A stretch of DNA of 64,000 nucleotides, taken from NCBI GenBank assembly GCA_028277445.1, contig JANQGG010000028.1:1-64000 (forward strand), written 5' to 3'. This stretch comes from Chloroherpetonaceae bacterium. GTDB taxonomy: Bacteria > Bacteroidota > Chlorobiia > Chlorobiales > Chloroherpetonaceae. Below, piece by piece: positions 11,887 to 54,389 of the stretch. The first letter of the stretch is position 1. Every line of letters begins with the position of its first letter. The notes below the pieces were generated by a model, which was not told where the DNA came from, searched no databases, and saw only the letters and a program-made list of their open reading frames with translations. The translations under genes were made by a program, and so were the position numbers.

Positions 11887-14800
11887 ATGTTAAAATTTAT
11901 AGAAAAGATATTTGGCACAAAACACGACCGTGATATTAAGAAAGTTTTTCCCTTAGTGGGTGAAATAAATGCCTTTTATGAAGACTTTAACAAATTAAGC
12001 GACGACGAGCTACGTTCTAAAACCCTGGAATTAAAAAAAATCATATCCGACCATATTCATGACACTCAAAAAGAGCTCGAAGTCGAAAAAGAAAAGCTTA
12101 ACAATCTTGAGCTCACCTTTGAAGAAATCGATAGCATAAAGGAAAATATAGATCATTTACAGCAAGCCTTATTATCTGAAACAGAAGAGATATTGCTTGA
12201 AATTTTGCCCCAAACATTTGCCATTGTAAAAGACACCTGTCGCCGATTGGTTGGCAAGCAGTTTCAACTCATGGGTAATGACTATACATGGGATATGATC
12301 CCTTATGATGTTCAGCTTATTGGCGGTATTGTGCTTCATGAAGGAAAAATTGCCGAAATGGCAACCGGTGAAGGTAAAACATTGGTTGCGGTTCTCCCTA
12401 CGTTTTTAAATGCCTTAACAGGCAAAGGAGTTCATGTTGTTACGGTCAACGATTATCTGGCCGAACGCGATTCGCAATGGGTTAAACCGGTTTTTGATTT
12501 TCACAACTTATCCGTGGGCGTTATTTTAGCCCGCATGTTGCCGGAAGATCGCAGAGAACAATACAATTGTGATATTGTCTACGGCACGAACAATGAATTT
12601 GGCTTCGATTATCTTAGGGATAATATGTCTTCAATCCCCGAAGATGTCGTACAACGTGAATTTAATTATGCCATTGTAGATGAGGTTGATAGTGTTTTAA
12701 TTGATGAAGCCAGAACACCACTTATCATTTCAGGCCCGGTACCTAACGCTGATGTTAATAAATATCAAGACATTAAACCTCGTGTTGAGCGTTTGGTCAG
12801 AGCTCAGCAAAACATCGTGGCTAAGATGCTCAATACCGTTGAAAAAAATTCAAAGCAACAGTCATCGGATAAAGACAGCGAATTTGAAATGGGTTTAGCG
12901 TTGCTTCGCTCCAAACGCGGCCAGCCAAAAAATAAAAAACTAATTAAGACATTGGGTGAAACCAATATGTCTAAACTCATGCAAACTGTTGAGAATGAAT
13001 TTTTAAAAGACAATGCCCGCCGCATGCATGAAGTTGATGAAGAGCTTCTATTTTCAATTGATGAAAAAAACCACACGATCGATTTAACCGAAAATGGACG
13101 ATCATTCTTGACAGATTCCAATGAGGATTCAGATTTCTTTCTCCTGCCTGATGTTGGTACCGAAATAGCAAAAATAGAATCCGACAGTTCTTTATCCGAG
13201 AGTCAAAAACAACAAAAAAAAGATGACGTGTACCGGGTGTTTTCGGAACGCTCCGAACGCATCCATAATATATCCCAATTGCTGAGGGCTTATTCGTTAT
13301 ATGAACGTGATGATGAATATGTGGTTCAACATGGTAAAGTTCTGATTGTTGATGAATTTACCGGTCGTATTTTACCGGGCCGACGTTACAGTGATGGATT
13401 GCATCAAGCTATCGAAGCTAAGGAAGGCGTGAAAATTGAAGGCGAAACCCAGACGATGGCCACAATCACACTTCAAAATTTCTTCAGGTTGTATAACAAA
13501 TTAGCCGGAATGACGGGTACTGCCGAAACGGAAGCTTCGGAGTTTTATGAAATTTACAAATTGGATGTTGTGGTAATCCCAACCAACAAGCCGATACAAC
13601 GAAACGACCAGGAAGATTTGGTTTATAAAACCAAACGGGAAAAGTATACCGCTACCATTGACAGAATTGAAGAGTTAAGAAAAAAAGAGCAGCCGGTGCT
13701 TGTAGGTACTACAAGTGTTGAAGTTTCGGAAACGCTTTCAAGAATGCTCAGGATGAAACGCATTCCCCATAACGTTTTAAATGCCAAACAAAACGAACGA
13801 GAAGCTGAAATCGTTGCTCAAGCCGGACAAAAAGGCGCTGTTACCATTGCTACAAATATGGCTGGCCGTGGAACGGATATCAAACTTGGTGAAGGCGTAA
13901 AAGAAAATGGCGGATTATTTATACTTGGCACAGAACGGCATGAATCGCGCAGGATCGACAGGCAATTGCGAGGCCGTGCTGGGCGTCAGGGCGATCCCGG
14001 TGAATCGGTATTTTATGTTTCACTGGAAGACGATTTAATGCGGCTGTTTGGTTCGGATCGCGTCATCTCTGTTATGGATCGATTGGGTCATGAAGAAGGC
14101 GATGTGATTGAACATGCGATGGTCACCAAATCAATTGAACGCGCGCAACGCAAGGTTGAAGAACAAAATTTCGCCATTAGAAAACGATTGCTGGAATATG
14201 ATGATGTGATGAATCAACAACGCGAAATTATTTACACCCGGCGGCGAAATGCGCTGTTTAAGGATCGACTTCGACTAGAAATTTTTGACCTTTTAAGAGA
14301 TCATGCCGATAAAATCTCAGAGCAATTTGTGCAATCATTACAAGCTAGTGATTTGGAAGAGCTTGTTCTTCGCGAATTATCGGTTGATATTAAAATCTCT
14401 GCCAATGAAATTGAAGATTTAGGCCATGATGGTTTAAGCGATAAAATTTATCACACATGTGTTGATTTCTATAAACGAAAAGAAAATATTCTGGGCTCGG
14501 AAATAATGGCCCAAATTGAAAAGTTTGCGGTTTTGGGGGTTATCGATCAAAAATGGCGCGAGCATTTAAGGGATATTGATGAACTTAAAGAGGGTATCAA
14601 TTTAAGGGCATACGGACAAAAAGATCCGCTTTTGGAATATAAACAGGAAGCCTTCAAGCTTTTTGTTGCTATGCTTGAAGATATCTCAAAAGAAACGCTT
14701 TCTTTGGCGTTTAAACTATACCCTCAACAAACTCAAAGCGCTCAAATGCTTCCTAAACGGGCGGAAGTTAACACAAAACGACTCGTGGCCACACACGAAG

Positions 14801-14976
14801 ATGCTGAAAGCGCTTATACTCACCCCTCCGAATCCGGTGTGGGAAATCAGCAGCATGAAACAAGTTCTGAGACTGAAGCTAAACAACAACCGATTCGTGT
14901 AGAAAAAACCCCAGGTAGGAACGATCCATGCCCTTGTGGAAGTGGCAAAAAATACAAACATTGTCATGGAAAATAG
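11887..14976 (+). CDS. secA: Preprotein translocase ATPase SecA
   Basis: Motor of Sec export, acting with SecYEG at the inner membrane. 1029 residues. It has the Walker A segment [24 protein letters not shown], the second-domain GTxSVEVSE and [11 protein letters not shown] motifs, and [12 protein letters not shown]. The C-terminus carries a SEC-C zinc motif ([12 protein letters not shown]). Compared with E. coli SecA (901 residues) there is a long charged insertion between the first ATPase half and the pre-protein cross-linking region (about residues 285-460), typical of Bacteroidota/Chlorobiota SecA. It is divergent from the carboxylase gene and is followed 57 nt later by the exported PorU. 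Confidence 0.97.
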
Positions 14977-15033: not shown

Positions 15034-18000
15034 ATGAGATATAACAAAAGGCTATTTCTTTTTTTATGGGTATGTGCTTTTATTGGAGCACAACTTTCGT
15101 TGGCTAACCAAAATAGTGCTATTGCAAAAGTCAATAGCAACTTACCTGTTGAAGGATCAAATAAAAGTATCAACGATCAGCATTTTAAAGTCTTAAAGAC
15201 ATATTCTAATAAAATTCAAATAGAGTTTTCTTACGCAATACCCGAGTATATACAAGATAATAGTAAATCGCTTGTCCAATCAAAGACTAAAGCTCATCAG
15301 GTTCTGGATAAGTATTATCAGCTCCCGTTTTTCAGTTACCCCATACTTGGTAAAATCTTATCCGCAAAAACGACTTATCTTAGTTCAAAAGGCTCATTAA
15401 AAAATATTGATTTGAAACCGTTAGTTAGTTTCACGGAAGATTCTCCAATTGGGCTAGGTGATCACTCTGAAAAACAAGTAACTGATCAAACTACTGAAGT
15501 TACTAACCCGTTTTACTCGGTCATCAAATGGAATTATGTTGGTTCTATGAGAGGTAAAGACATCTCATACCTGCATATATATCCGTATCGCTATTTTAGA
15601 GAATCCTCAACTTTGCAATTCAATCAGAAAATAATTGTTGAAATTACATTTTCTGACGCTGCTTCTATTAGCAGTTTTCAGATCGGTTTAAATGAAGCTC
15701 AAATATTGAACAATCCAACCCCGAAAAAACAAGTATCTAAAATCAATACAAGATTGAACCTTCAAAAAGGGTTAGCGTCTCAAACTCTATCTTCAAGAAC
15801 CATTTCAACATTATCCGAAGCCAATGTTTTCGGTTCTTTACCTGTTATTCCAAAATACAAGATCATTGTTGATGAAGATGGGGTTTACCAGATTGGATAC
15901 TTTGAATTTCAAGACGAAGAATTTCCTGAAGATTTCTTTAAGGCTGATCCCAGAACGTTTCGACTATTTAACAAAGGTATAGAGATCCCCATTATTGTTT
16001 CAGGAGAAGAAGATGGCGAGTTTGATCGTAACGACTATATTGAGTTCCTCGGTGAATCTCACAAAATTGGCTTGGAAGATCCCGACCGCCCTGATATGTA
16101 TAATGATCCATATACAAATAAAAACATTTATTATTTGTATTGGGAACCAACCTTGACCTCAGCAAATAAAGGGCTCCGCATGGTAGAAGTTCCGGCTCAA
16201 ATAAGACGGGTAATTAGCAGCGGAACCTCATTTAATTTAAAAGGTCGCTCGTTTCGTTCAACTTTACATTTTGAAGAAGATAATATCATTAGGGAACGCA
16301 TGAGTGGATTTTACAGCCGTTTCAATCAGGAAGAGTATGCAAAAACTAGAAATCATTCAGATGCTAGAGATTTAAACTTTTGGACGCCAATTGACTATGG
16401 TCGTTCTACAACTTTTAACATTGTAGTTCCATCACCTGATTTTAGCGTTAGCATTGATCCTGAATCGTTGAGAGTTCGCGCGGCTTTTCATAGCAAAAGC
16501 ATCGTAAATTTAAATGGCAAGCCTCAAAACACAGCTTTATTGGCATTGGGAAAACCTTCTGCTCCTTTCATCGTTACTGAAACAAGTTGGGGAGAAAAAG
16601 TATACGCAGATCGTAATAAAAGCCGTCAGGAGCTTAATTTGGTAGATGTTAAACTTCCGATCACCCAACAGCGTTTGTTGGATGAATCAGGCTTGGCTGT
16701 AATTCAAATCACCAACCGAGACAATATCTCTACAGGTACGACTTCTCGGTCTTTTTATTTTAACTGGTTAAATATTACCTATCGACGGTTGTATGAAGCC
16801 TATAATGATGAATTAACGTTTAAAGCCCCTCCTTCTTCCAGACCCGGTTTATATCAATTTCAAATCAATGGATTTAAAACTCCGGAAATCGATATTTATA
16901 AAAAAGATGTTGGGAAACTTTCCAACTTTAACGTTGAAAAATATTCTCAAATTAATGCTGATAATGTTGAAGAAAATTTATACCGGGTGATTTTTCAAGA
17001 TAACGTAATTAACCCAAACGATGTCAGTTACATAGCCTTGCCTTCGGATCACAAAAAAATCCCGAGTGCATTCAAAAAAGTTGAACGTGCAAATGTTTTT
17101 GAACCCGAAATATCCTTACAAAATACGTCCAACAATTATAATTACATTATAATTACAACCGATCAATTTATAAATGAAGAAAACAAAACCGACGATACTA
17201 ATCCTGTCAAGAAGTATAAAGACTATCGTGAAAGTTCACTCGGATTTTACAACGAATCTAACAATGTCCTTGTAACAACAGTAGAAGGAATTTACGATGA
17301 ATTTAATTATGGCATTAAAAGCCCACATGCAATTCGCAATTTCTTGAATTATGCCTATAACAACTGGTCTACCTCCCCAACCTATGTTCTGCTTTTAGGC
17401 GATGCGTCCAGAAATAATGAATCCCAAGATTTAGTGCCAACCATGCATGTTCAAACGCTAAGATTTGGTGCTACCGGCGCTGATGTTTGGTATACTATGA
17501 TAGACGGTTACGACGAATCAGGTCGGCTAGATCTGTTGCCAGAATTGCAAATTTCGCGAGTTCCAGCCAAAACGTTAACTGACATTGATGCTTATCTAAA
17601 TAAGTTAAAAAAATATGAGCTTTACGTTACCGATCCTTCAAATGCCTCAATTGGCGAATGGCAAAATCAAATCGTGTTTGTGGCTGGTGAGACTGGTTCA
17701 GAAAGTATTGGTAGCCAAAGCGTGCGAAAAGATGTATTTGTTGTCCAAACTGATAACTTGATTGAAAATTACATTCAACGAAATTTCTTTATCAATCGAT
17801 TACACACAAACCTTGGTCGAAATGCGGTTTCAAATGTTGACTATCAAGACATTTATAGAGGATCTCGTTCAGATATGGAGCAATTTCTTAACACTGGTTG
17901 CTTAATACTAAACTTCGTTGGTCATGGTGGCGGCGCAATTTGGTCGGATAGTCAGGTGATGACACTTAGCGGTGTGGATCGATTAAATAATTTTGAATCT

Positions 18001-20634
18001 TTGCCTTTTGTTACCAGCATGACTTGTTTTACAGGAGCTTTCGATGATCCATCCTATTCAGTAGGGACGCTTTCAGAAAAAATGATTTTAACTCCTGAAA
18101 AAGGTGCAATTGGATTTATAGGGTCAGCAGGATTAGGATGGCTAATCAATGATGATATCATGGCAAGATCTATCTTCAACTTTTTATTAGATGATGAAAA
18201 CAAAAATTTATCTATTGGTGATCTGCTCTTCCAAGCCAAAACGAGATATTACTTAGATAACATTTATTTTTGGGATCAAGCCCCATCTATGATTTATCAA
18301 TATGGCATTTTTGGTGATCCGGCCTTACGACTTGCACATCCTTTTTCAAAAACAGATAATGGTGAAGATATACTTAACTATAATTTAGACGCTCATATTT
18401 TAAGTATTGGCGACACCTTAACTTTCACTTGTGATATTAAAAACTTTAATACGGGCGTTGCAAAATGGGTCTTAACCGACGATTACAATTTTGATACCGA
18501 GTTAAATCCCAATAATATCCTTTTTGTCCAAAGTGGAAAATTACTGCAAAATGTAGATGGTTTTTTAACCGATACAATTAAAATTCCAATTGTTCAACCT
18601 CTTGAAGTTGCTTATAACAATAATGAAAACTTTGCAGGTGGTCAATTAAAGCTATTTATTCAGGGCTCTGGCTCTAATGCCGGTAAAGCAATTCATGGTA
18701 ATATTCCTATTAGCGCAAATGGGCCTTACTTCAAAAGTTTTGGTCCTGAAACGCCTATACAAAATGCTGTGGATCAACCACTGAAATTTTCTGCTCAGAT
18801 AGACTCAAGATATCCAATTGATTTTGTTGAACTTCGAATAACTATTGAAGAGCCAAATCAAAACTTAGAGTTCTCAGTCGTGCCTGGTTGGAATAACAAA
18901 TTGATTTCTGCACTTGAAACAACACAAAACACTTATGTCACTTCGACAGCTGTTCCTGCATCAATCATGAAAAAAGGAAATCGGATCACCTACAATTTTG
19001 TTGCCCAAAATTCTCAATTCAATGTTGCTTATTCTGAAACCAAAACTGAAATTGTTGGAAACCTTCCGGATTTAGCTGCTTACCCCCAAGCAAATAAAGG
19101 CATGCTACAATTTTTTGATAACTCATCGATTGATTTTTACACCGACAATGACTCCGTCGTTATTGGTTCAAATATATATAACTGGAGTTCTTTACCGGCT
19201 GAAAATGTAACTGTTTATTTTTATGAAAGCTCTATAAGAAATGGCGATCCGAGAAAATCATCATATCAAGGTTTAAATAAACCCCTTTTAACCAATGATA
19301 ACATTATTGGTCATACAACGATTTCTGTTGGAGCTAATCAGCATGCATTTGCTAAAATTGGTGTTCCAAGTGATTTTGAATTGTCTCAAACATATTCTGT
19401 TGGTATAAAAGTTGTTTCTGATACCAACCAATCCATTTATGAAGAAACTTATACTAACAATCTTTCAAATGAAAAAAACATTGTGTATGATATTCTTCAC
19501 ATTGATAACACAACCATTAATAATATTGCTTTAGACAAAAACCTATACCTAAGTTTTGCACAATCTACATTTTCAAAAAGCGGATTCTTAAACATTACAA
19601 AACTATCAAATCCAACTATTGTTGCTCAACCCGACAATCAATTTATACGCTTTAAAGATCAACGCATAGACACTATCCTGATCGATGAAAACTTTTATGC
19701 CTATGAAATTACCTCTTTAGATACGTCTCTGATTCTTAAAAAACCTATTACCCTTCGCTTTGAGTTTGACACTAATGATGAACTTTTTCTTCAAAATCCA
19801 TCTGAACGCGAAAAAGTTGGCGGCTATTATTACGCAAGTAATTTGGATCGTTGGATAAAGTTAGTTAACCAAATTCAACTTGATTCCGCGACAATATCGA
19901 TGACCAGCAATAAATTTGGCACGTTTTCAGTACTATACTCTTCGGATGTTACAAACCCGATAGCTAACTTAGGCATTGACGGTCAGTATTATTCAAGTGG
20001 AAGCTTTGCGCCAAAAAAAGCTCGTATTATTGCGACATTGCAAGATCAAAACGGCATTAACCTTGACCCCCAGTTTATTACGGTCATTAAGGATGGCGAT
20101 AGCTCTGAATCGCTTCAAAGTAAGTTAACTATCCCTGAAAATGCTTTAAATGCCAATAGTGTAGGTATTTCATTTAGCGACGAATTTGATCCGGGCAATC
20201 ATGAAGTCACGTTTGTTTTTCATGATACCAACTTAAACCAGACACGAAGTGAAAAAATGGTTTTTCAGGTTGAAAATGATTATAGCTTAAAAGTATTTGG
20301 GAATTTTCCGAATCCATTTACGGATGAAACGGATATCGCATATGAAATCATCGGCGGTGAATCTGCAAATACTCTTGAGTTTAAGATTTATACGGTTTCC
20401 GGAAGATTGGTTACCACTTTCAACCAACAATCAGGTAAAGTTTTAGGTTTTACGCCATCACAGTTTGCAGGTGCAGATAATGACGCCAGAACTGTTGGGC
20501 TTCATATTTATCGTTGGGATGGAACCGATAAAGATGGTAATTCTGTAGCTAACGGCGTATATTTCTGCAAAATTAAAGCCAGTTTCAAAGGCAATGTTCA
20601 GGAAGAAATTATTAAAATTGCTCGAATTCGTTAA
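15034..20634 (+). CDS. porU: PorU-like type IX secretion C-terminal signal peptidase/sortase
   Basis: Exported protein of 1866 residues starting with a signal peptide (about 1-24). A peptidase C25 (gingipain) domain lies in the middle (about 720-1110). The catalytic His964 is in FVGHGGG and Cys998 in MTCFTG, so the dyad is intact. It is far longer than Porphyromonas PorU (about 1160): about 700 extra C-terminal residues form beta-sandwich (CARDB/Ig-like) modules. They end in an FlgD-like/type IX sorting domain (about 1755-1866) with NFPNPF and a closing YFCKIKA strand. PorU removes the sorting domain of secreted cargo and attaches cargo to surface lipopolysaccharide. It lies 11 nt before a PorV-like gene, the known partner. 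Confidence 0.87.
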   Translation: MRYNKRLFLFLWVCAFIGAQLSLANQNSAIAKVNSNLPVEGSNKSINDQHFKVLKTYSNKIQIEFSYAIPEYIQDNSKSLVQSKTKAHQVLDKYYQLPFFSYPILGKILSAKTTYLSSKGSLKNIDLKPLVSFTEDSPIGLGDHSEKQVTDQTTEVTNPFYSVIKWNYVGSMRGKDISYLHIYPYRYFRESSTLQFNQKIIVEITFSDAASISSFQIGLNEAQILNNPTPKKQVSKINTRLNLQKGLASQTLSSRTISTLSEANVFGSLPVIPKYKIIVDEDGVYQIGYFEFQDEEFPEDFFKADPRTFRLFNKGIEIPIIVSGEEDGEFDRNDYIEFLGESHKIGLEDPDRPDMYNDPYTNKNIYYLYWEPTLTSANKGLRMVEVPAQIRRVISSGTSFNLKGRSFRSTLHFEEDNIIRERMSGFYSRFNQEEYAKTRNHSDARDLNFWTPIDYGRSTTFNIVVPSPDFSVSIDPESLRVRAAFHSKSIVNLNGKPQNTALLALGKPSAPFIVTETSWGEKVYADRNKSRQELNLVDVKLPITQQRLLDESGLAVIQITNRDNISTGTTSRSFYFNWLNITYRRLYEAYNDELTFKAPPSSRPGLYQFQINGFKTPEIDIYKKDVGKLSNFNVEKYSQINADNVEENLYRVIFQDNVINPNDVSYIALPSDHKKIPSAFKKVERANVFEPEISLQNTSNNYNYIIITTDQFINEENKTDDTNPVKKYKDYRESSLGFYNESNNVLVTTVEGIYDEFNYGIKSPHAIRNFLNYAYNNWSTSPTYVLLLGDASRNNESQDLVPTMHVQTLRFGATGADVWYTMIDGYDESGRLDLLPELQISRVPAKTLTDIDAYLNKLKKYELYVTDPSNASIGEWQNQIVFVAGETGSESIGSQSVRKDVFVVQTDNLIENYIQRNFFINRLHTNLGRNAVSNVDYQDIYRGSRSDMEQFLNTGCLILNFVGHGGGAIWSDSQVMTLSGVDRLNNFESLPFVTSMTCFTGAFDDPSYSVGTLSEKMILTPEKGAIGFIGSAGLGWLINDDIMARSIFNFLLDDENKNLSIGDLLFQAKTRYYLDNIYFWDQAPSMIYQYGIFGDPALRLAHPFSKTDNGEDILNYNLDAHILSIGDTLTFTCDIKNFNTGVAKWVLTDDYNFDTELNPNNILFVQSGKLLQNVDGFLTDTIKIPIVQPLEVAYNNNENFAGGQLKLFIQGSGSNAGKAIHGNIPISANGPYFKSFGPETPIQNAVDQPLKFSAQIDSRYPIDFVELRITIEEPNQNLEFSVVPGWNNKLISALETTQNTYVTSTAVPASIMKKGNRITYNFVAQNSQFNVAYSETKTEIVGNLPDLAAYPQANKGMLQFFDNSSIDFYTDNDSVVIGSNIYNWSSLPAENVTVYFYESSIRNGDPRKSSYQGLNKPLLTNDNIIGHTTISVGANQHAFAKIGVPSDFELSQTYSVGIKVVSDTNQSIYEETYTNNLSNEKNIVYDILHIDNTTINNIALDKNLYLSFAQSTFSKSGFLNITKLSNPTIVAQPDNQFIRFKDQRIDTILIDENFYAYEITSLDTSLILKKPITLRFEFDTNDELFLQNPSEREKVGGYYYASNLDRWIKLVNQIQLDSATISMTSNKFGTFSVLYSSDVTNPIANLGIDGQYYSSGSFAPKKARIIATLQDQNGINLDPQFITVIKDGDSSESLQSKLTIPENALNANSVGISFSDEFDPGNHEVTFVFHDTNLNQTRSEKMVFQVENDYSLKVFGNFPNPFTDETDIAYEIIGGESANTLEFKIYTVSGRLVTTFNQQSGKVLGFTPSQFAGADNDARTVGLHIYRWDGTDKDGNSVANGVYFCKIKASFKGNVQEEIIKIARIR

Positions 20635-20645
20635 TTCATTTTTCT

Positions 20646-21716
20646 ATGGCTCATTTCATTTTTTATCGACTAAGAAAATTCACACTGGTTTTACTGCTGT
20701 TTAATACCATTAGTTTAAATCTCTTTGCTGATAATGACAGTTATGTTGCTGCTTTTCTTGATATCCCAATTGGCGTTCGTGCATTAGGCCTTGGGGGTCA
20801 ATATACCCCTATCGATAATCACGATGGAACGGCTTTTTATTGGAATCCCGCTGGTGTAAGTTTAACCCAAAGTGGAATTTTAACATTGCTTTACTCTAAC
20901 CAATTTGGTTCTTTAGGCGATCCTTTGTCAGATTTTATTTATGTCGGTTATGCTCAAGAAATAAGTAAAGGATTTGGTTTTTCAGTTAATTGGATTCGCA
21001 ACAGCATTTCAAATATCCCATTAACGGCAAGTTTGGATTTGAATCAGGGCGATATCGGACAGATCTTGCACCGTCAAGATTTAATAAACGGTTCTTTTTC
21101 AAATACAGACCAGGCACTTATTTTAAGTTTAGCCAAAAACGTCGTTTCATCTGTTGATTTTGGCTGGCAATACTTTGATCTACCAATAGAACTTCCAATA
21201 GGGATTAATTTTAAATATATCCATCAATCTTTTAGTGGTGCAAGTGAAGTAGAGTATTCAGGCTCAGGGGTTGGTATTGATTTGGGCGCTATACTAAAAT
21301 TTAAGCTTGGCGATTTTGTTTCAAATCAGGCCTATGGTGATGTTGCCATAGGCGGAACAGTTAGAGACTTATTTAATACCCCTATTTCATGGAATACTGA
21401 TTTGAAAACAAAGGCTACCATTAAGCGATCTTATCTTTTAAGTTTTTCGTACAAGCAACCGGTTAGAATAATATCCAGTTCCTTGATTTTTCTTTTGACT
21501 TTAGATTCAAAATACGAAGATATTACCTCGTTAGGATTGGAATACAAATTTCAAGATATTTTAGCCCTGAGAATTGGTTCATATGATGAAAACTTAACAT
21601 TAGGTGCAGGATTTCATATCTTTAATGAGATTTATCTGGATTATGCATTCCAATCTCATGAACTGGGTGATCCACATCGTGTTGGACTCACAGTCGATCT
21701 ATTAAAACTACTTTGA
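20646..21716 (+). CDS. porV: PorV/PorQ-family outer-membrane beta-barrel protein
   Basis: Protein of 356 residues with a signal peptide ending near LFADN (about residue 29). The family's opening block follows: FLDIPIGVRALGLGG, then a DGTAFYWNPAG segment. The remainder is alternating beta strands. PorV-type proteins are FadL-like barrels of the type IX system that shuttle cargo to PorU. The tight spacing to porU supports that role here. PorV, PorQ and related barrels are hard to tell apart by eye, so the symbol is a best guess. Confidence 0.78.
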   Translation: MAHFIFYRLRKFTLVLLLFNTISLNLFADNDSYVAAFLDIPIGVRALGLGGQYTPIDNHDGTAFYWNPAGVSLTQSGILTLLYSNQFGSLGDPLSDFIYVGYAQEISKGFGFSVNWIRNSISNIPLTASLDLNQGDIGQILHRQDLINGSFSNTDQALILSLAKNVVSSVDFGWQYFDLPIELPIGINFKYIHQSFSGASEVEYSGSGVGIDLGAILKFKLGDFVSNQAYGDVAIGGTVRDLFNTPISWNTDLKTKATIKRSYLLSFSYKQPVRIISSSLIFLLTLDSKYEDITSLGLEYKFQDILALRIGSYDENLTLGAGFHIFNEIYLDYAFQSHELGDPHRVGLTVDLLKLL

Positions 21717-21723
21717 TTTTTTT

Positions 21724-22569
21724 ATGTCATATAATCTGAATATTGTGAAATTTTTCATGAGTAACTGCCTATTAGTTTGTGCTTTAATTTTTATCACTAC
21801 TGGATGCTCAGACGATGAAGTACTGTCAATTCCTGAAGCGCCGCAGTTTGTTCCTAAAAGCTCGGATACCGCAAAATATAGCCAAGGTATTCGCCCAATT
21901 TCCAATTCAAAAGGGATTTATTTGGAGTGGTACCAAAATAATGAAAATGATTTGGCCGGGTACAATTTATACAAAACGACCCAATTCACAATTGCTGGGA
22001 GTGGTGATACAATACCCGTAAATTTCAATTTGTTAAAAAAAATCCCACTGGGTTCTGAAGAAAGTGATACCAGCTATCAGGATCTTGATGTTGATCAATT
22101 TAACAGATGCTTTTATCGTTTAACAGCCTATTCCAAATCTGGAGGTGAAAGCACGCCATCCACTAAAAGCCCTAATTACCTTGTTAAGAGTTATCCAATT
22201 TTAGAAGAGCCAACGGGTCAATTTCAAATCCCTGCTAATAAAAAGCTAACCTTCAAATGGAGTAATGACCCCAGCGCTGCAGGCACTTATACTGTGAAGA
22301 TTTATACACAAGACGACGATTCTGGAAATTTTGATATAGTTGCCCGTGCGATTATAGACAATACTGGCTTTGCAGGTGCCGATTCGGTGACTTTTGATTT
22401 TAATTCATTAAATGCCAGTATTGATGGAAATCGCAATATAACAGTTTATAAATTGCTAGAAGCCGATTCTTTTGGGGTTATATATAATTGGTATGTTTTC
22501 TACTCTGAGTCTACAATAGATCTTTTAACGGGTTCAATTAGCGAATCGGCATTTAGTTTAATTAACTAA
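21724..22569 (+). CDS. Lipoprotein with fibronectin type III-like domain
   Basis: Protein of 281 residues. A hydrophobic segment (about 12-27) ends in TTGC, making Cys28 the likely lipidation site. After an acidic linker (SDDE) comes a fibronectin III-like module: GIYLEWYQNNENDLAGYNLYKT and YRLTAYSKSGGES are typical B-C and F-G strand wording. A second all-beta region follows. The function is unknown. It starts 7 nt after the PorV-like gene and 18 nt before an SLBB gene, so it belongs to the same transcript and probably to an envelope complex (inference). Confidence 0.65.
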   Translation: MSYNLNIVKFFMSNCLLVCALIFITTGCSDDEVLSIPEAPQFVPKSSDTAKYSQGIRPISNSKGIYLEWYQNNENDLAGYNLYKTTQFTIAGSGDTIPVNFNLLKKIPLGSEESDTSYQDLDVDQFNRCFYRLTAYSKSGGESTPSTKSPNYLVKSYPILEEPTGQFQIPANKKLTFKWSNDPSAAGTYTVKIYTQDDDSGNFDIVARAIIDNTGFAGADSVTFDFNSLNASIDGNRNITVYKLLEADSFGVIYNWYVFYSESTIDLLTGSISESAFSLIN

Positions 22570-22587
22570 TTATCAAAAAACCATTAA

Positions 22588-23145
22588 ATGAAACGTTTTC
22601 TTCAATCTTTTATACTTTTCGTATGTTTTTTTCAAATACCCTCAGTAACTTACGCTCAAGTATTCGGTGGGAGTATTTCCGGTTCTACAGGAACAGGTTC
22701 CTTTTCAACGCCATCACTTGACGGTTCAAGTGGCCCAACAGCATACTTTTACGGAAAGGATCAGGGTGTTCTCATTGATGTTAACTTATGGGGTCAAGTT
22801 GGTAAGCCTGGAAAATATTTTGTGCCATATACTACAGACTTAATTTCTTTAATTTCAATAGCAGGGGGCCCTACTGATAAAGCAAAACTTGATGAAGTTC
22901 GAATCATCAGGTACGCGGTTAAAGACACCACTGTAATAGAAAAAATTGCACGTGTAAATATTGTAAAGTTTATCGAGTACGGAGATCAAGGTAATTTACC
23001 TCAACTGATTCGGGGTGATACTGTAATCATTCCCGGCGATGCTTTAAGTGTGTTTCAAACGTTTGTTGGCATTGCGGCAAGTATTGGAGTTGTCGTCAAT
23101 ACGTTTGCTCTTATTGCATTACTTAATCAACGTACGAGTAATTGA
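22588..23145 (+). CDS. Exported SLBB-domain protein (polysaccharide-export-like)
   Basis: Protein of 185 residues with a signal peptide ending at about TYAQ (residue 24), then a Gly/Ser/Thr linker. One SLBB-like domain follows (about 60-150) with the GQVGKPGKYFVP and LISIAGGPTDKA motifs usual in Wza/GfcC-type exporters. A hydrophobic helix closes the protein (about 152-177) with polar ends. Wza proteins are longer and begin with a PES domain, absent here, so this is a stand-alone SLBB protein. No glycosyltransferase or Wzc gene is adjacent. Family placement is good; its role is unknown. Confidence 0.68.
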   Translation: MKRFLQSFILFVCFFQIPSVTYAQVFGGSISGSTGTGSFSTPSLDGSSGPTAYFYGKDQGVLIDVNLWGQVGKPGKYFVPYTTDLISLISIAGGPTDKAKLDEVRIIRYAVKDTTVIEKIARVNIVKFIEYGDQGNLPQLIRGDTVIIPGDALSVFQTFVGIAASIGVVVNTFALIALLNQRTSN

Positions 23146-23221
23146 AAAATGTTCCTTTTAAACTTTATTTCATTATATTTTAGTTGTGTAAAGTTATTTA
23201 CATAATAATACACCCAAGCTT

Positions 23222-24358
23222 ATGTCAAAAAATCTACACATTTTAGCCTTAGTTTTATTTATCATATGTGGAAGTTTTCCATCTAAGGCTCAACACATAT
23301 TTAATGCAAGTAACGAACTGTTGCATGTTCAAGAAGCCATGACACCTAAAAGTGGTAATTTAACCCTTTATAGCCATATGGATGTTAATACGGTTTCATC
23401 GCCATTGGATGATTACAACGTTTGGATTGTAAGAAATACTATTCACATAGACTATTCGATTTTTGACAATCTTGTTTTAGGTTTAAATACTTCCATATAT
23501 CAGGATATACATAGGAAGGATCCCAGCAACAATTTTGACCATTTAATTTTCACCGTTAAGACTGGCTCATTTGGTTTTGGTAATGATCATTTTTTTGTAG
23601 GTGCTTTAGGTTCATATATGCTTCCCTTTTCGGACTACAATAACAATTATGGGTTGCCATATACTGCAGGTGGTAATGAAATTGGTTTTGACTTTATTTT
23701 TTCATTTTATACCGATAATCTTTTTCCAAAAGAATCAACAAGTATTAGTTTAAACATTGGTTACTACAACTATTTTGATAAAGATGAAGACATTTCTCAT
23801 AACTCAAGAGAATTTCTTGTAAATAATAATTCTTCAGCATTCAAATACTCATTTGGTTTACTGGTTCCTACACCTTCATTGGATATCGTTATAGAAATGT
23901 GGGGTCATAGCTTTATTCAACAACCTCCTACCATCGCATATAGTCGTGAAGATCAACTGTTTTTAACATTTGCTACTAAGTTAAATCCGATTTCGTTTAT
24001 TAATCTTAATATTGGTGGCGATTTATTGCTTTCAGGTAACGATGAGGAAACAGATTTTAACGCAGCTAAAGCTTATAGTATTAGTCCAATCCCTAAAGTC
24101 AATTCTGTAAACTTCCCGGAGTGGCGCTTTTTCCTTGGCTTAGAATTTAACATTTTACCATTTAATTTGGTAGCAGATGCATCAATCTTTTCAGAACGAA
24201 AACTTTCTAAATTTGAGGCGAATCGAATACTTAAAAAGCTAAATGAACATAAAGCCAATAAAGAGTGGTCTAACAAAGAGATTGATAAGCTAAATAAAAA
24301 TCAATTAGAACTTGAAAAAAATGTTCAATTGTTAAGGTCTATTCTTCGACAAGAGTAA
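23222..24358 (+). CDS. Predicted outer-membrane barrel protein with C-terminal coiled coil (paralogue 1)
   Basis: Protein of 378 residues with a signal peptide ending at SKAQ (about 24). Repeated amphipathic beta strands rich in Gly, Tyr and Phe follow. The last 50 residues are a charged coiled coil (KLNEHKANKEWSNKEIDKL onward). I do not recognise a named family. Matching blocks (RNTIHxDxxxxD, NIGYY, DxDISxNSREFLV, PPxIAYSRED) show it is a duplicate of the next gene. It follows the SLBB gene by 76 nt. The barrel prediction is from pattern only. Confidence 0.6.
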   Translation: MSKNLHILALVLFIICGSFPSKAQHIFNASNELLHVQEAMTPKSGNLTLYSHMDVNTVSSPLDDYNVWIVRNTIHIDYSIFDNLVLGLNTSIYQDIHRKDPSNNFDHLIFTVKTGSFGFGNDHFFVGALGSYMLPFSDYNNNYGLPYTAGGNEIGFDFIFSFYTDNLFPKESTSISLNIGYYNYFDKDEDISHNSREFLVNNNSSAFKYSFGLLVPTPSLDIVIEMWGHSFIQQPPTIAYSREDQLFLTFATKLNPISFINLNIGGDLLLSGNDEETDFNAAKAYSISPIPKVNSVNFPEWRFFLGLEFNILPFNLVADASIFSERKLSKFEANRILKKLNEHKANKEWSNKEIDKLNKNQLELEKNVQLLRSILRQE

Positions 24359-24494
24359 CTTTTTCATAGGTTAAACTTTAGATTTTTAGATTAATATTAA
24401 TTTTAAACGCTTCGTATTCAGTATATTATTAAAAATTTATATATTGGCTGTAAAATTGAGTAAACTAGCTCAAACATTTAATGAAGAGATTATT

Positions 24495-25661
24495 ATGAAA
24501 AAAATACTCTACTTTTCCATATTAACGTTTTTTTTACTGCTGAATCACTCCAATTTAGTGGGTCAAAACCTTTATACGTCTTCAAATAGGTTAATACATG
24601 TTCTTGAAGCTAAATCCTCCAAGTCAGGAAATATCTCTTTTTATAGCTATACGGACGGTTATACAGCATTAAGTTTTGCCTTTTCTGATGAAAGGTTTTC
24701 AATTTTAAGAAATACAATTCACGTTGATTTTGCTTTAACAGATCACATTACGTTTGCTTTAAGTCCAACGTTATATAAAGATTTAAATGGTAACAAAGGC
24801 GAATCTGAGAATTTTCCAATTGATAATGTGTTGATTAGTGCAAAGTATGGTTCTCTTGAGTTATCAAAGAATTTCTCAGTTGGTTTTTTAGGTTCAATTT
24901 TGGTACCAGCAACCGATCGTCATAATGTGTATGGTCAAATGTATTCTGGAGGTGGAACAGAGCTCGGTCTAAATGTTTTAAGCTCCTATTACTTTGATCA
25001 GTTTTTCCCAAATGAATCTTTAAGCATTCATTTTAATATTGGTTACTATATGTTCAATGATAAAGATCAAGATATATCAAATAATTCTAGGGAGTTTTTA
25101 GTACCTGAGAGTTCTTCTGCAATTAATTATGGTTTGGGCTTTAAGTACCCTTTAGATCTTTTTGAAGAAACTGGTTTTGATATTTTATTAGAATATTGGG
25201 GTCAAATGTTTATGCAAGAACCCCCTGTGATCGCTTATTCTCGAGAAGATATTTCTTTTGTTACCGGGGCAATAAAGATTACCCCTGGTAGTTTATTTAG
25301 CTTTAGCATTTCTGGTGATCTTTTAATTACAGGAGATGATGATAAAACTGATTACTCGATTGGCAGCAGATATTCGGTACGTTCTCTTCCTTCAGCAAGC
25401 TATCCGGATTATAAAATAGCGTTGGGATTGCAATTTAACTTTAATGCCGAAGAGCAAGTCCCAACCCTTCAACAATCAGCTACTTGGCCAGTTGTTAATC
25501 AATCTGAAATTAATCTTGAGCAGCTGTTTTCTGATGATCAAAATGCAGACGAAAAAATCGAGGAAATTAAGCGACGACGGTTACAGATTGAAAAAAACCT
25601 TCAGCAGTTGCGTCAATTGTTGAAAGAAAACAATTCTGTACCTGTTCAGGAAAGCGAATAG
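24495..25661 (+). CDS. Predicted outer-membrane barrel protein with C-terminal coiled coil (paralogue 2)
   Basis: Protein of 388 residues, taking the ATG at 24495, which opens a proper signal peptide (MKKILYFSILTFFLL) and has GAAGAG upstream. A start at 24444 would add 17 residues ahead of the signal peptide. Layout and many blocks match the preceding gene: signal peptide, beta-rich body, PPVIAYSRED, then a C-terminal coiled coil (KIEEIKRRRLQIEKNLQQL). No named family was recognised. A strong terminator follows, closing the envelope block that began with porU. Confidence 0.6.
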   Translation: MKKILYFSILTFFLLLNHSNLVGQNLYTSSNRLIHVLEAKSSKSGNISFYSYTDGYTALSFAFSDERFSILRNTIHVDFALTDHITFALSPTLYKDLNGNKGESENFPIDNVLISAKYGSLELSKNFSVGFLGSILVPATDRHNVYGQMYSGGGTELGLNVLSSYYFDQFFPNESLSIHFNIGYYMFNDKDQDISNNSREFLVPESSSAINYGLGFKYPLDLFEETGFDILLEYWGQMFMQEPPVIAYSREDISFVTGAIKITPGSLFSFSISGDLLITGDDDKTDYSIGSRYSVRSLPSASYPDYKIALGLQFNFNAEEQVPTLQQSATWPVVNQSEINLEQLFSDDQNADEKIEEIKRRRLQIEKNLQQLRQLLKENNSVPVQESE

Positions 25662-25685: not shown

Positions 25686-25720
25686 AAGCCTTTACAAATT
25701 ATTTGTAAAGGCTTTTTTTA
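25686..25720 (+). terminator. Rho-independent terminator closing the envelope block
   Basis: A perfect 13-bp stem (25686-25698 with 25702-25714) with a 3-nt loop is followed by a T-run. It lies 25 nt after the stop of the second barrel paralogue and just before purL. Confidence 0.9.
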
Positions 25721-51283: not shown

Positions 51284-52168
51284 ATGCGCGTTAATACTTA
51301 TTCAGCTTTTAGTAAGCTATGGATTGTTGCACTCCTTTTTTCAACACTTTCTTTTGCTGTTGGATGTGACGATGATGATCCGCTTTCACCACCAGAAGAC
51401 CATTTTGAAGCTGTTGGATTGCAGATTGTTCAATCCGGTAATGTGATTTTCAGCTATTACGGACCGGATTACGCACCAGGCACAACCCTGACTGATGATA
51501 CCATCAAAATATCGCAAGGATTAACTGATCATTGGGATGTTAAATTCTATGACGAAGACAGCCTTGTCATCGATCCGCCTGATGATGCCGATAAATCGTT
51601 TAGCGCTGTTTTTTCGGATCCAACTGTGGCTGAACTTTGGTGGCATGAAGGTGAAGAAGGCGAATTTGAATTCCACATGAAAGGCCTCAAGGAAGGCTAT
51701 ACCACGGTTGAGTTTAAAGTTATGCACAACGACCACGCTGATTTTACCACCTTGCCAATTCCGGTTTTAGTTGATACTACGGTTAATCATGGCCCCCCTG
51801 TCGAAGTACAGCTGAAAGACGAAGACAGTGGCGATTTGCTGGCGACATCGTATGAAAAGACTTCAAGTTCCACATCAACCGATACTATTTTGGTTACAAA
51901 TGGTGAAACAACCGATCATATCGTTGCATACTTTTTTGATGCTAACGACATTAAATTTCAACCGGGTGTGCCACCTCATAGCTTAGAGGTTACCAGTTCC
52001 AACACAGCCATTGCAGATATTACTGGCCAGGAACCCGGGGAGCCCTGGGCCTTTAAAATTGAAGGTAAGTCGGAAGGAAAAACTCAAATAACCGTGAAAA
52101 TTCTTCACGATGGCAGTCTTGGCAAAGAGTTTAAGCCTATTTCAGTTAAAGTGACACCAACACCTTAA
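51284..52168 (+). CDS. Surface lipoprotein with two repeated domains
   Basis: Protein of 294 residues. The signal peptide ends AVGC at about residue 28, followed by DDDD. Two copies of about 115 residues follow: the first has DDTIKISQGLTDHWDVKFYD and HEGEEGEFEFHMKGLKEG, the second DTILVTNGETTDHIVAYFFD and EPGEPWAFKIEGKSEG. These line up unit by unit. No named family recognised. The start has GGAGGA (51275-51280), the strongest ribosome binding site nearby. It is 1 nt before the TonB receptor gene, so the two probably form a receptor-lipoprotein pair (inference). Confidence 0.7.
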   Translation: MRVNTYSAFSKLWIVALLFSTLSFAVGCDDDDPLSPPEDHFEAVGLQIVQSGNVIFSYYGPDYAPGTTLTDDTIKISQGLTDHWDVKFYDEDSLVIDPPDDADKSFSAVFSDPTVAELWWHEGEEGEFEFHMKGLKEGYTTVEFKVMHNDHADFTTLPIPVLVDTTVNHGPPVEVQLKDEDSGDLLATSYEKTSSSTSTDTILVTNGETTDHIVAYFFDANDIKFQPGVPPHSLEVTSSNTAIADITGQEPGEPWAFKIEGKSEGKTQITVKILHDGSLGKEFKPISVKVTPTP

Positions 52169-52169
52169 C

Positions 52170-54389
52170 ATGTACATTTTTAGTCTAACAGGTCGCCCTT
52201 TGGTGGCGGCCTGTTTCATAATGATTTTTTCCCTGGACTTATTTGGGGCGCAGCAGCCAGTTAGGTTCTCAGGGGTAATCCTTGATATGCTCACCCATCA
52301 ACCGGTGATTAATGCAACAGTTAAGGTTCTTAACCAAACCATTACCAGTGATAAAAAAGGGCAGTTTGCTTTTCAGGGCACGGATAACAAGCCATTTGAA
52401 ATTCTCATCTCACACGAGTCTTACCACTCAACCACCCAGGAAATAGATCACAAAACCTATGCCCAACAAAAGATTGTGATCTTATTAAAGCCTAAAATTT
52501 ACAGAACCGACCCGATTTTGGTTACCGCTAAACATACCCATAACAAGCTGGAGCATATCGCTGAAAAAAGTAATGTGTTAGAAGGCAAAGACCTTGAGAA
52601 AAAATTAAGCTCGAACCTTGCTTCAACATTGAAAAATGAAACCGGCATTGCGATGAGATCTATGGGGCCAGCGCCTGCAAGGCCAGTTTTAAGAGGACTT
52701 GGCTCAGACCGGGTTTTGATCAGCGAAGACGGGCAAACAACGGTTGACCTTTCGACTACCTCACCAGACCATGCTGTGACAATTGATCCATTTTCTTCAG
52801 AACGCATTGAAGTTATTCGCGGGCCAAAAATCTTGCTGCAAACCTCAACAACCATTGGCGGTGTCATTAATGTGGTTCGTCACGATATTCCACAATCCCT
52901 GAAAGACGCTATAACAGGTAACTTTGGCTTGTATGGCGAAAGCGCTAATTCGGGGTATTTAGGCTCAGCCCAAGCCGAAATTCCCCTTAAACCCTTTGCC
53001 ATTAAAGGGATGGTTAGCCGCAGAAAAACCGATGATTTGCAAACCCCAAAAACTAAATTACAAAATTCCCAGTCTGAAAATTTCTCCGCTATCGCCGGTG
53101 CGAGTTGGATTGGCGACTTAGGATTTGTGGGGAGTTCATTGAAACATTTCAGCTTGGATTATGGTATTCCCGGTGGATTTGTTGGGGCTCACCCTAATGG
53201 TGTGTTCATTGAAATGAAAAAAGACCAGATGGATATCAAATCAAGATTGTATTCAGATGGTGGTTTGTTTTCTTCCATTGAAACCCACCTCAGTTTTTCT
53301 GATTACTATCATAAGGAGATAGAATCCAATGGGTCGGTGGGCGCAGAGTTTAAGATCTTGAATTACCAGGGTTTTGTTCATTTCAACCATCTTAAAAGTG
53401 GAATTTTTAACCAGGGCACGCTTGGTCTATCTTTCCATGTGCGCAATTTCGATATAGGAGGTAATGTTTTTACCTCGCCCAGTCTCTCTAAAAATGCGTC
53501 CTTATACGTCTTTGAATCTATTGTTCTTAACCGGTTAACACTGGAATTTGGCGGACGGTTAAACTACGATGTCATTACCCCGGACAAAGAAAAACCTGAT
53601 GCCAATATTGGCTTTGTAAGGGAACGGGATTTTTTCACTACTGCGTTTTCGGCGTCTCTGTTATATGAACTCACTAAAAACTGGTCGATTGGGGGAAATT
53701 TAAGTCAATCATCTCGCGTCCCCTCAATCGAGGAGTTGTATTCCGAAGGGCCGCATTTGGCCGCTTATTCTTACGAAGTTGGCAATCCTGATTTAAATAG
53801 TGAGTTTGGATTAGGCGCAGAGCTATTTAATTATGTGGAATCTGAAAACTTCAATCTGTTAGCCACCTTTTTTTGGTACGACCTCAACACATTCATAGTT
53901 CCCAGAAATACCGGAGAGTTTAATTACCGTCTCTTGTTGCCAATTTACCAAACCGTTGGCGAGCCAGCTCAATTATTTGGCGGTGAATTCAATTTTAATT
54001 TATCCATTTCTAAGAAACTGGGTTTTACAACTTCAGCCAGTTACACACAAGGTGAGTTTTCTAACAGAAATCATGCGTTGCCTTTAATTCCACCGTTAAA
54101 AGGAACATTCGGATTAAATGGCCATATTGATGATTTTGACTGGGATATTGAATGGGTATGGGCTGCCAGCCAAAACCGAACCGATGAGTTTGAAGAGTCT
54201 ACCGAGGGTTATGCCATTTTAAATGCCAGTGTGTTGTATTCATTCATGACGGGCTCTCAGGTACATAACCTCTCATTTACAGTGGAAAACCTGTTTAACA
54301 CCGAGTACCGCAATCACCTCTCACGTGTGAAAAGCATCATGCCGGAAGCCGGCACAAATGTGCGTCTGACGTATAAAATTTACTATTAG
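52170..54389 (+). CDS. TonB-dependent outer-membrane receptor, ZnuD-like
   Basis: Protein of 739 residues. A signal peptide leads to a carboxypeptidase-regulatory-like beta domain (about 30-110), a plug (LSSNLASTLKNETGIAMRSM, RPVLRGLGSDRVLISEDGQT, FSSERIEVIRGPKILL) and a 22-strand-type barrel ending LTYKIYY. The segment DYGIPGGFVGAHPNG resembles the loop region of zinc receptors (ZnuD), but the His-rich insert typical of ZnuD is absent. It would import a metal or metal chelate using TonB energy. The upstream His/Cys-rich protein and lipoprotein fit a metal role (inference). Confidence 0.78.
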   Translation: MYIFSLTGRPLVAACFIMIFSLDLFGAQQPVRFSGVILDMLTHQPVINATVKVLNQTITSDKKGQFAFQGTDNKPFEILISHESYHSTTQEIDHKTYAQQKIVILLKPKIYRTDPILVTAKHTHNKLEHIAEKSNVLEGKDLEKKLSSNLASTLKNETGIAMRSMGPAPARPVLRGLGSDRVLISEDGQTTVDLSTTSPDHAVTIDPFSSERIEVIRGPKILLQTSTTIGGVINVVRHDIPQSLKDAITGNFGLYGESANSGYLGSAQAEIPLKPFAIKGMVSRRKTDDLQTPKTKLQNSQSENFSAIAGASWIGDLGFVGSSLKHFSLDYGIPGGFVGAHPNGVFIEMKKDQMDIKSRLYSDGGLFSSIETHLSFSDYYHKEIESNGSVGAEFKILNYQGFVHFNHLKSGIFNQGTLGLSFHVRNFDIGGNVFTSPSLSKNASLYVFESIVLNRLTLEFGGRLNYDVITPDKEKPDANIGFVRERDFFTTAFSASLLYELTKNWSIGGNLSQSSRVPSIEELYSEGPHLAAYSYEVGNPDLNSEFGLGAELFNYVESENFNLLATFFWYDLNTFIVPRNTGEFNYRLLLPIYQTVGEPAQLFGGEFNFNLSISKKLGFTTSASYTQGEFSNRNHALPLIPPLKGTFGLNGHIDDFDWDIEWVWAASQNRTDEFEESTEGYAILNASVLYSFMTGSQVHNLSFTVENLFNTEYRNHLSRVKSIMPEAGTNVRLTYKIYY

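Follow-up and report, generated by a model that had tools for sequence, protein, structure and literature searches.

A divergent type IX sortase and PorV-family barrel lie in a conserved gene unit with a lipoprotein and a single-SLBB protein in Chloroherpetonaceae

The window analyzed here is a stretch of 64,000 nucleotides, part of contig C68 in the 3.42 Mb genome of a Chloroherpetonaceae bacterium, and it carries a block of six genes in a row on the forward (+) strand. The first gene (15034..20634) encodes a C25 type IX sortase of 1866 amino acids, assigned from its Peptidase_C25 domain and a C25 tree, and is followed by genes for a PorV-family outer membrane barrel (shuttle) of a module-specific orthologue group, assigned from profile scores (20646..21716), a lipoprotein (21724..22569), a single-SLBB protein with a signal peptide and a C-terminal hydrophobic helix (22588..23145), barrel 1 (23222..24358), and its paralogue barrel 2, recognized by homology and ending at 25661. 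The most likely start of barrel 2 is ATG 24495 rather than the alternative TTG 24444, since it coincides with the beginning of both the signal peptide and the family alignment. Upstream lies secA (11887..14976, +), perhaps co-transcribed with the block; the gaps from secA to barrel 2 are 57, 11, 7, 18, 76, and 85 nt, and the gap between the two barrel genes is 136 nt if barrel 2 begins at the ATG. An intrinsic-terminator-like hairpin of 13 pairs followed by T7 (25686..25714, +) closes the block, with purL beyond it. Consensus promoters in the block numbered 52 versus 54.1 in shuffles, which is no excess, and a scan for Bacteroidota -33/-7 promoters found none between block genes. All six products are predicted to be exported, from an N-terminal signal or lipobox read from the sequence. 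The first-pass annotation had described these six exported, co-directional, closely spaced open reading frames and a terminator at 25686, and all were found as it described them.

The same annotation had named the first two genes porU and porV-like and spoken of PorU/PorV, and here it does not hold. The sortase matches Peptidase_C25 strongly (3.8e-84), with the C25 domain at residues 704 to 1100 and a GHG motif at residues 963 to 965; an alignment of ten module sortases with two canonical PorU proteins (A5) shows no variation at His964 or Cys998. Its C terminus is a type A sorting-like domain, over the TIGR04183 cut-off and ending in KIARIR. It scored 254.9 bits against the PorU equivalog NF033707 and 227.2 bits against PorU2 (NF052324), reaching neither cut-off (420 and 450, respectively). 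The PorV-like protein scored 68.7 bits against the PorV/PorQ model NF033709 (E, 6e-19; cut-off, 90) over nearly its full length, 65.3 bits against PorV2 (NF052325), and 34.8 bits against PorQ, the latter two short of cut-offs of 325 and 220; its orthologue in genome G039 reached 89.9 bits with NF033709 (cut-off, 90). By these profile scores, it is a divergent relative of the PorV/PorQ family. The canonical pair of the source genome lies on contig C58, with PorU at 928 bits and PorV at 275 bits, both over the NCBIfam cut-offs; the block pair is therefore an additional, divergent paralogue, and its identity with the canonical pair is ruled out. SprA (1397 bits) is likewise encoded in the source genome, where type A sorting domains number 35, with the sortases accounting for two of these. 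A search for GldM with TIGR03517 gave no match in the source genome or in the controls and is hence uninformative.

In a tree of 45 C25 domains, the ten module sortases formed one clade (100/98), sister (97/91) to a canonical PorU clade (100/100), while the PorU2 clade (100/99) and other long C25 proteins were separate from them. As with PorU2/PorV2 in other Bacteroidota, where a protein of ~1670 to 1690 amino acids often lies beside a PorV-family gene, the block holds a second, longer C25 sortase, but the tree (for the sortase) and the scores (for both proteins) rule out identity with that pair. No SLBB or lipoprotein genes of the block's kind adjoined PorU2, and no paper on a PorU2/PorV2 sorting pair was found by title or abstract. 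Putatively, the block sortase would cleave the C-terminal domains of cargo proteins and attach the cargo at the cell surface.

Long C25 sortase-like proteins of ~1750 to 1930 amino acids were also seen in exopolysaccharide loci that have no PorV gene, where they adjoin O-antigen-ligase-like, glycosyltransferase, or sugar-transferase genes (L058:5091-10628, L143:6963-12545, L145:6562-12294, and L137:7088-12406, as well as L135, L136, L141, L070, and L071). These are possibly a further glycan-linked sortase class.

The lipoprotein has a lipobox, TTGC followed by SDDE, whose Cys28 is invariant among its relatives (alignment A3), so that the mature protein begins with CSDDE; acidic residues stand behind this Cys in many relatives, not all. 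In Capnocytophaga, SDDFE and SDDDD signals directed a lipoprotein to the surface of the cell (PMC5080379), and the CSDDE start resembles these surface-export signals at the sequence level. In an AlphaFold model (pLDDT, 83), the protein folds into two sandwich domains whose best Foldseek matches are tandem Fn3 domains.

The SLBB protein has its SLBB domain at about residues 64 to 150; hmmscan placed it just under the cut-off of 27 (25.8 bits; 9.5e-06), a genome search placed it over the cut-off (28 bits), and it is the only Pfam match of this protein. A single SLBB domain and a C-terminal hydrophobic helix were found in 19/19 module SLBB proteins. Its profile matched one polysaccharide export protein among PDB sequences. 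Of the features of a Wza-type export protein, it has the SLBB domain but not the Poly_export (PES) domain, and no Wzz partner is encoded in any carrier block. Beyond the module, its closest relatives are single-SLBB proteins that share the helix and are mostly encoded next to chain-length proteins (Wzz/GNVR/AAA_31) of polysaccharide loci. Like the single-SLBB proteins of Wzz/tyrosine-kinase loci (relatives of EpsY, pepcterm_export, and EpsE), the module protein combines a signal peptide, one SLBB domain, and a C-terminal helix in 170 to 190 amino acids; unlike them, it stays with a sortase rather than with Wzz, and it scored far under the cut-offs of the EpsY and other such models. In an SLBB tree, the module copies grouped apart from the polysaccharide-locus copies, but the separation is weak (64/47), so descent of either group from the other cannot be read from it. 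Stand-alone SLBB proteins of ~170 amino acids with a C-terminal membrane helix, mostly adjoining Wzz/tyrosine-kinase-like proteins, were seen separately in loci L107 to L119, and these appear to be Wza exporters in reduced form.

AlphaFold predicted barrel 1 as 12 strands followed by a C-terminal helical hairpin, or coiled coil (pLDDT, 71; pTM, 0.67), and Foldseek ranked FapF (4.5e-08) and COG4313 (7e-07) at the top, with a query TM of ~0.46. Barrel 2 is 37 to 39% identical to barrel 1. Neither barrel matched any Pfam family or, at E ≤ 1, any NCBIfam model, and assignment to PorP/SprF, OmpA, or a Pfam barrel family was rejected for want of a match; among PDB sequences, the barrel profile picked up nothing beyond coiled coils matched by chance. 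FapF-type transporters are 12-stranded trimers with an N-terminal coiled coil and genes for amyloid cargo. The block barrel shares with FapF and COG4313 channels a predicted 12-stranded barrel with an appended helical coil, but it carries the coil at the C terminus, comes without Fap genes, and shows no sequence similarity to either. The model thus supports placing the barrels in the 12-stranded channel class, which does not imply common descent with FapF or COG4313. The barrel family has one more paralogue, the third, which ends in an AgmX/PglI (TonB-like) domain scoring slightly short of the cut-off (NF033768, 1e-09) and occurs at L065:8586-9941 (contig C28 of the source genome), L067:7578-9077, and L056:14487-16307; the domain is named for myxobacterial gliding proteins.

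We followed the block through two genome sets, 148 genomes drawn across the phylum and 395 genomes of the phylum. Among the 148, the PorV profile exceeded 450 bits in 11 genomes (next best, 145), and these same 11 carriers exceeded 100 bits with the lipoprotein profile (next best, 54) and 130 bits with the SLBB profile (next best, 95). Barrel homologues were found in 10/148, and in 10/10 of these all five genes (sortase, PorV, lipoprotein, SLBB, and barrel) are clustered; the eleventh carrier, G039, reads secA-sortase-PorV-lipoprotein-SLBB, with a sufS-like gene at the barrel's place. The proposal that the block is an add-on to type IX machinery is supported in this sample: in carriers, one particular sortase/PorV pair is followed by the genes for the lipoprotein, SLBB protein, and barrel, and 11/11 carriers have SprA and at least two C25 proteins. 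The other SprA-positive families of this sample, of which there are many, were found to lack the module.

In the larger set, a PorV orthologue (>270 bits) was present in 19/395 genomes of six families, always linked to the module. The 19 carriers cluster in families and are not independent events; within them, we counted the sortase in 19/19, the SLBB protein in 19/19, the lipoprotein in 18/19, and a barrel in 15/19, with the order sortase-PorV-(lipoprotein)-SLBB in 19/19, a recurrence well beyond chance. Independent occurrence of these genes in most genomes was looked for across the 395 and did not appear, as the lipoprotein orthologue (>80 bits) was confined to 17 genomes, all carriers, with one extra copy off the module (G260:C18). 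Because they are missing in four carriers and one carrier, respectively, the barrel and the lipoprotein are not essential to the core. The barrel belongs to the module in Chlorobiales and family f4 and is absent in families f21 and f35, and a second copy occurs only in the source genome, G005, and G133; the two barrels, which the first-pass annotation had counted in the set, are accordingly no fixed part of it. The genes from sortase to SLBB are usually ≤30 nt apart or overlap by a few bases, a spacing that suggests translational coupling, whereas the gap before the barrel gene is wider (21 to 146 nt across carriers). Wherever a carrier contig extends far enough to tell, secA is the upstream neighbor; in the one exception, G164, it lies a few genes away from the module. 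The order remains unchanged over six families while PorV orthologue identity falls to ~35%, which is strong evidence for joint function, and co-function of the module genes is well supported. We found no paper on this operon and none joining an SLBB domain with type IX secretion; the module is a conserved gene unit that has apparently gone undescribed. Of the view of the block as an unknown envelope unit in a type IX context, the linkage stands, and the sortase has to be read as a second lineage, not as porU.

Our favored explanation, which we hold with slightly more confidence than doubt, is that the block encodes a second, dedicated type IX attachment (sorting) complex. We infer that cargo would exit through the SprA translocon and be carried by the module PorV rather than by the canonical PorV; the module sortase would then cut it at its C-terminal domain and pass it to a surface acceptor. 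The lipoprotein may hold the complex on the outer face. The acceptor is probably a surface glycan, which the SLBB protein and the barrel, the latter an optional channel, may bring or export. Porphyromonas PorU acts alongside PorV, PorQ, and PorZ, and PorZ hands A-LPS to PorU (PMC8545088), and the SLBB protein and barrel would play a role parallel to that of PorZ and A-LPS. Like the Porphyromonas attachment complex, the module has a C25 sortase that keeps its His/Cys and C-terminal domain, a PorV-family barrel, and a genome with SprA; unlike it, its sortase and PorV stay under the equivalog cut-offs, the sortase forms a separate clade, an Fn3 lipoprotein, an SLBB protein, and a 12-stranded barrel are added, and the canonical pair is present in the same genome. 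A glycan acceptor is made more plausible by the other long C25 sortases that sit in polysaccharide loci (L058, L135 to L137, L141, L143, and L145). Counted against this explanation are that no cargo is linked to the module and no subset of cargo assigned to it, that the block holds no glycan gene, that SLBB domains bind other ligands as well, and that some carriers lack the barrel or the lipoprotein. The link to surface polysaccharide that the first-pass annotation had raised is plausible but indirect.

The SLBB relatives in Wzz loci, the nearness of the barrel fold to FapF (a polypeptide exporter) and COG4313 channels, and the long C25 sortases inside polysaccharide loci would also suit a small polymer or peptide exporter, with an SLBB ring under the 12-stranded barrel, whose polymer the sortase and PorV decorate with protein. 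We consider this unlikely, as no carrier block encodes Wzz, Wzy, a flippase, or a glycosyltransferase, the barrel is missing from four carriers, and the barrel fold matches are generic at a query TM of ~0.46. Strict linkage to secA and one PorU/PorV lineage could instead mean that the products of the lipoprotein, SLBB, and barrel genes serve this divergent pair in assembly or quality control, by inserting it into the outer membrane or stabilizing it there, and have no acceptor role. This seems quite unlikely to us: the canonical PorU/PorV of the source genome (L064) has no such adjoining genes, and SLBB proteins are not known to act as assembly factors.

It is also conceivable that the four genes after the sortase pair are envelope genes of an ordinary kind, in a neighborhood that was inherited and is nonfunctional, and the flanking of the block by secA and purL in Chlorobiales would fit such static synteny. 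Families f4, f21, and f35 retain the order, however, despite differing downstream neighbors and a PorV identity of ~35%, the genes overlap, and the lipoprotein orthologue is confined to carriers, all of which make mere inheritance improbable. Type B cargo in Flavobacterium uses specialized barrel shuttles (PMC12618676), and the block barrels might by analogy be PorP/SprF-like type B shuttles for adhesins, but neither barrel matches TIGR03519 and no obvious cargo gene adjoins them, and we regard this as very improbable indeed.

A more specific form of the dedicated attachment complex, which we offer as doubtful but possible, is that a distinct PorU-type sortase, supplied with cargo by its own PorV, would join that cargo to a surface polysaccharide which the SLBB protein and a dedicated 12-stranded barrel deliver; the gliding adhesins of Chloroherpetonaceae might be anchored in this way. 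Chloroherpeton glides, Thermochlorobacter is held to glide, and Chlorobiaceae are nonmotile (PMC9318685); type IX secretion in Chlorobiota has been suggested earlier (PMC5837995; PMC11285876). In the Chlorobiaceae-like family f2, no listed genome has an SprA match, the module was not found, and C25 matches amount to one marginal case at most; the related gliding families have both SprA and C25 sortases. Within Chlorobiales, SprA and the module are thus distributed along the line between gliding and nonmotile groups, but it follows phylogeny as well, so a causal link between module and motility cannot be drawn from it.

These results place sprA, sortases, and the module in the green bacteria that glide (Chloroherpetonaceae sensu lato), and they present type IX sortases as several deep lineages with different partner genes. 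The lineage with an SLBB partner is a lead on protein-glycan joining outside Bacteroidia. The nearest relative compared, G005, belongs to the same family, consists of a single contig of 3,293,456 bases, and is presumably Chloroherpeton thalassium, in which a gliding or surface-display role becomes testable. Elsewhere in the window, at 51284 to 54389, a lipoprotein-like gene is followed closely by a TonB-dependent-receptor-like gene.
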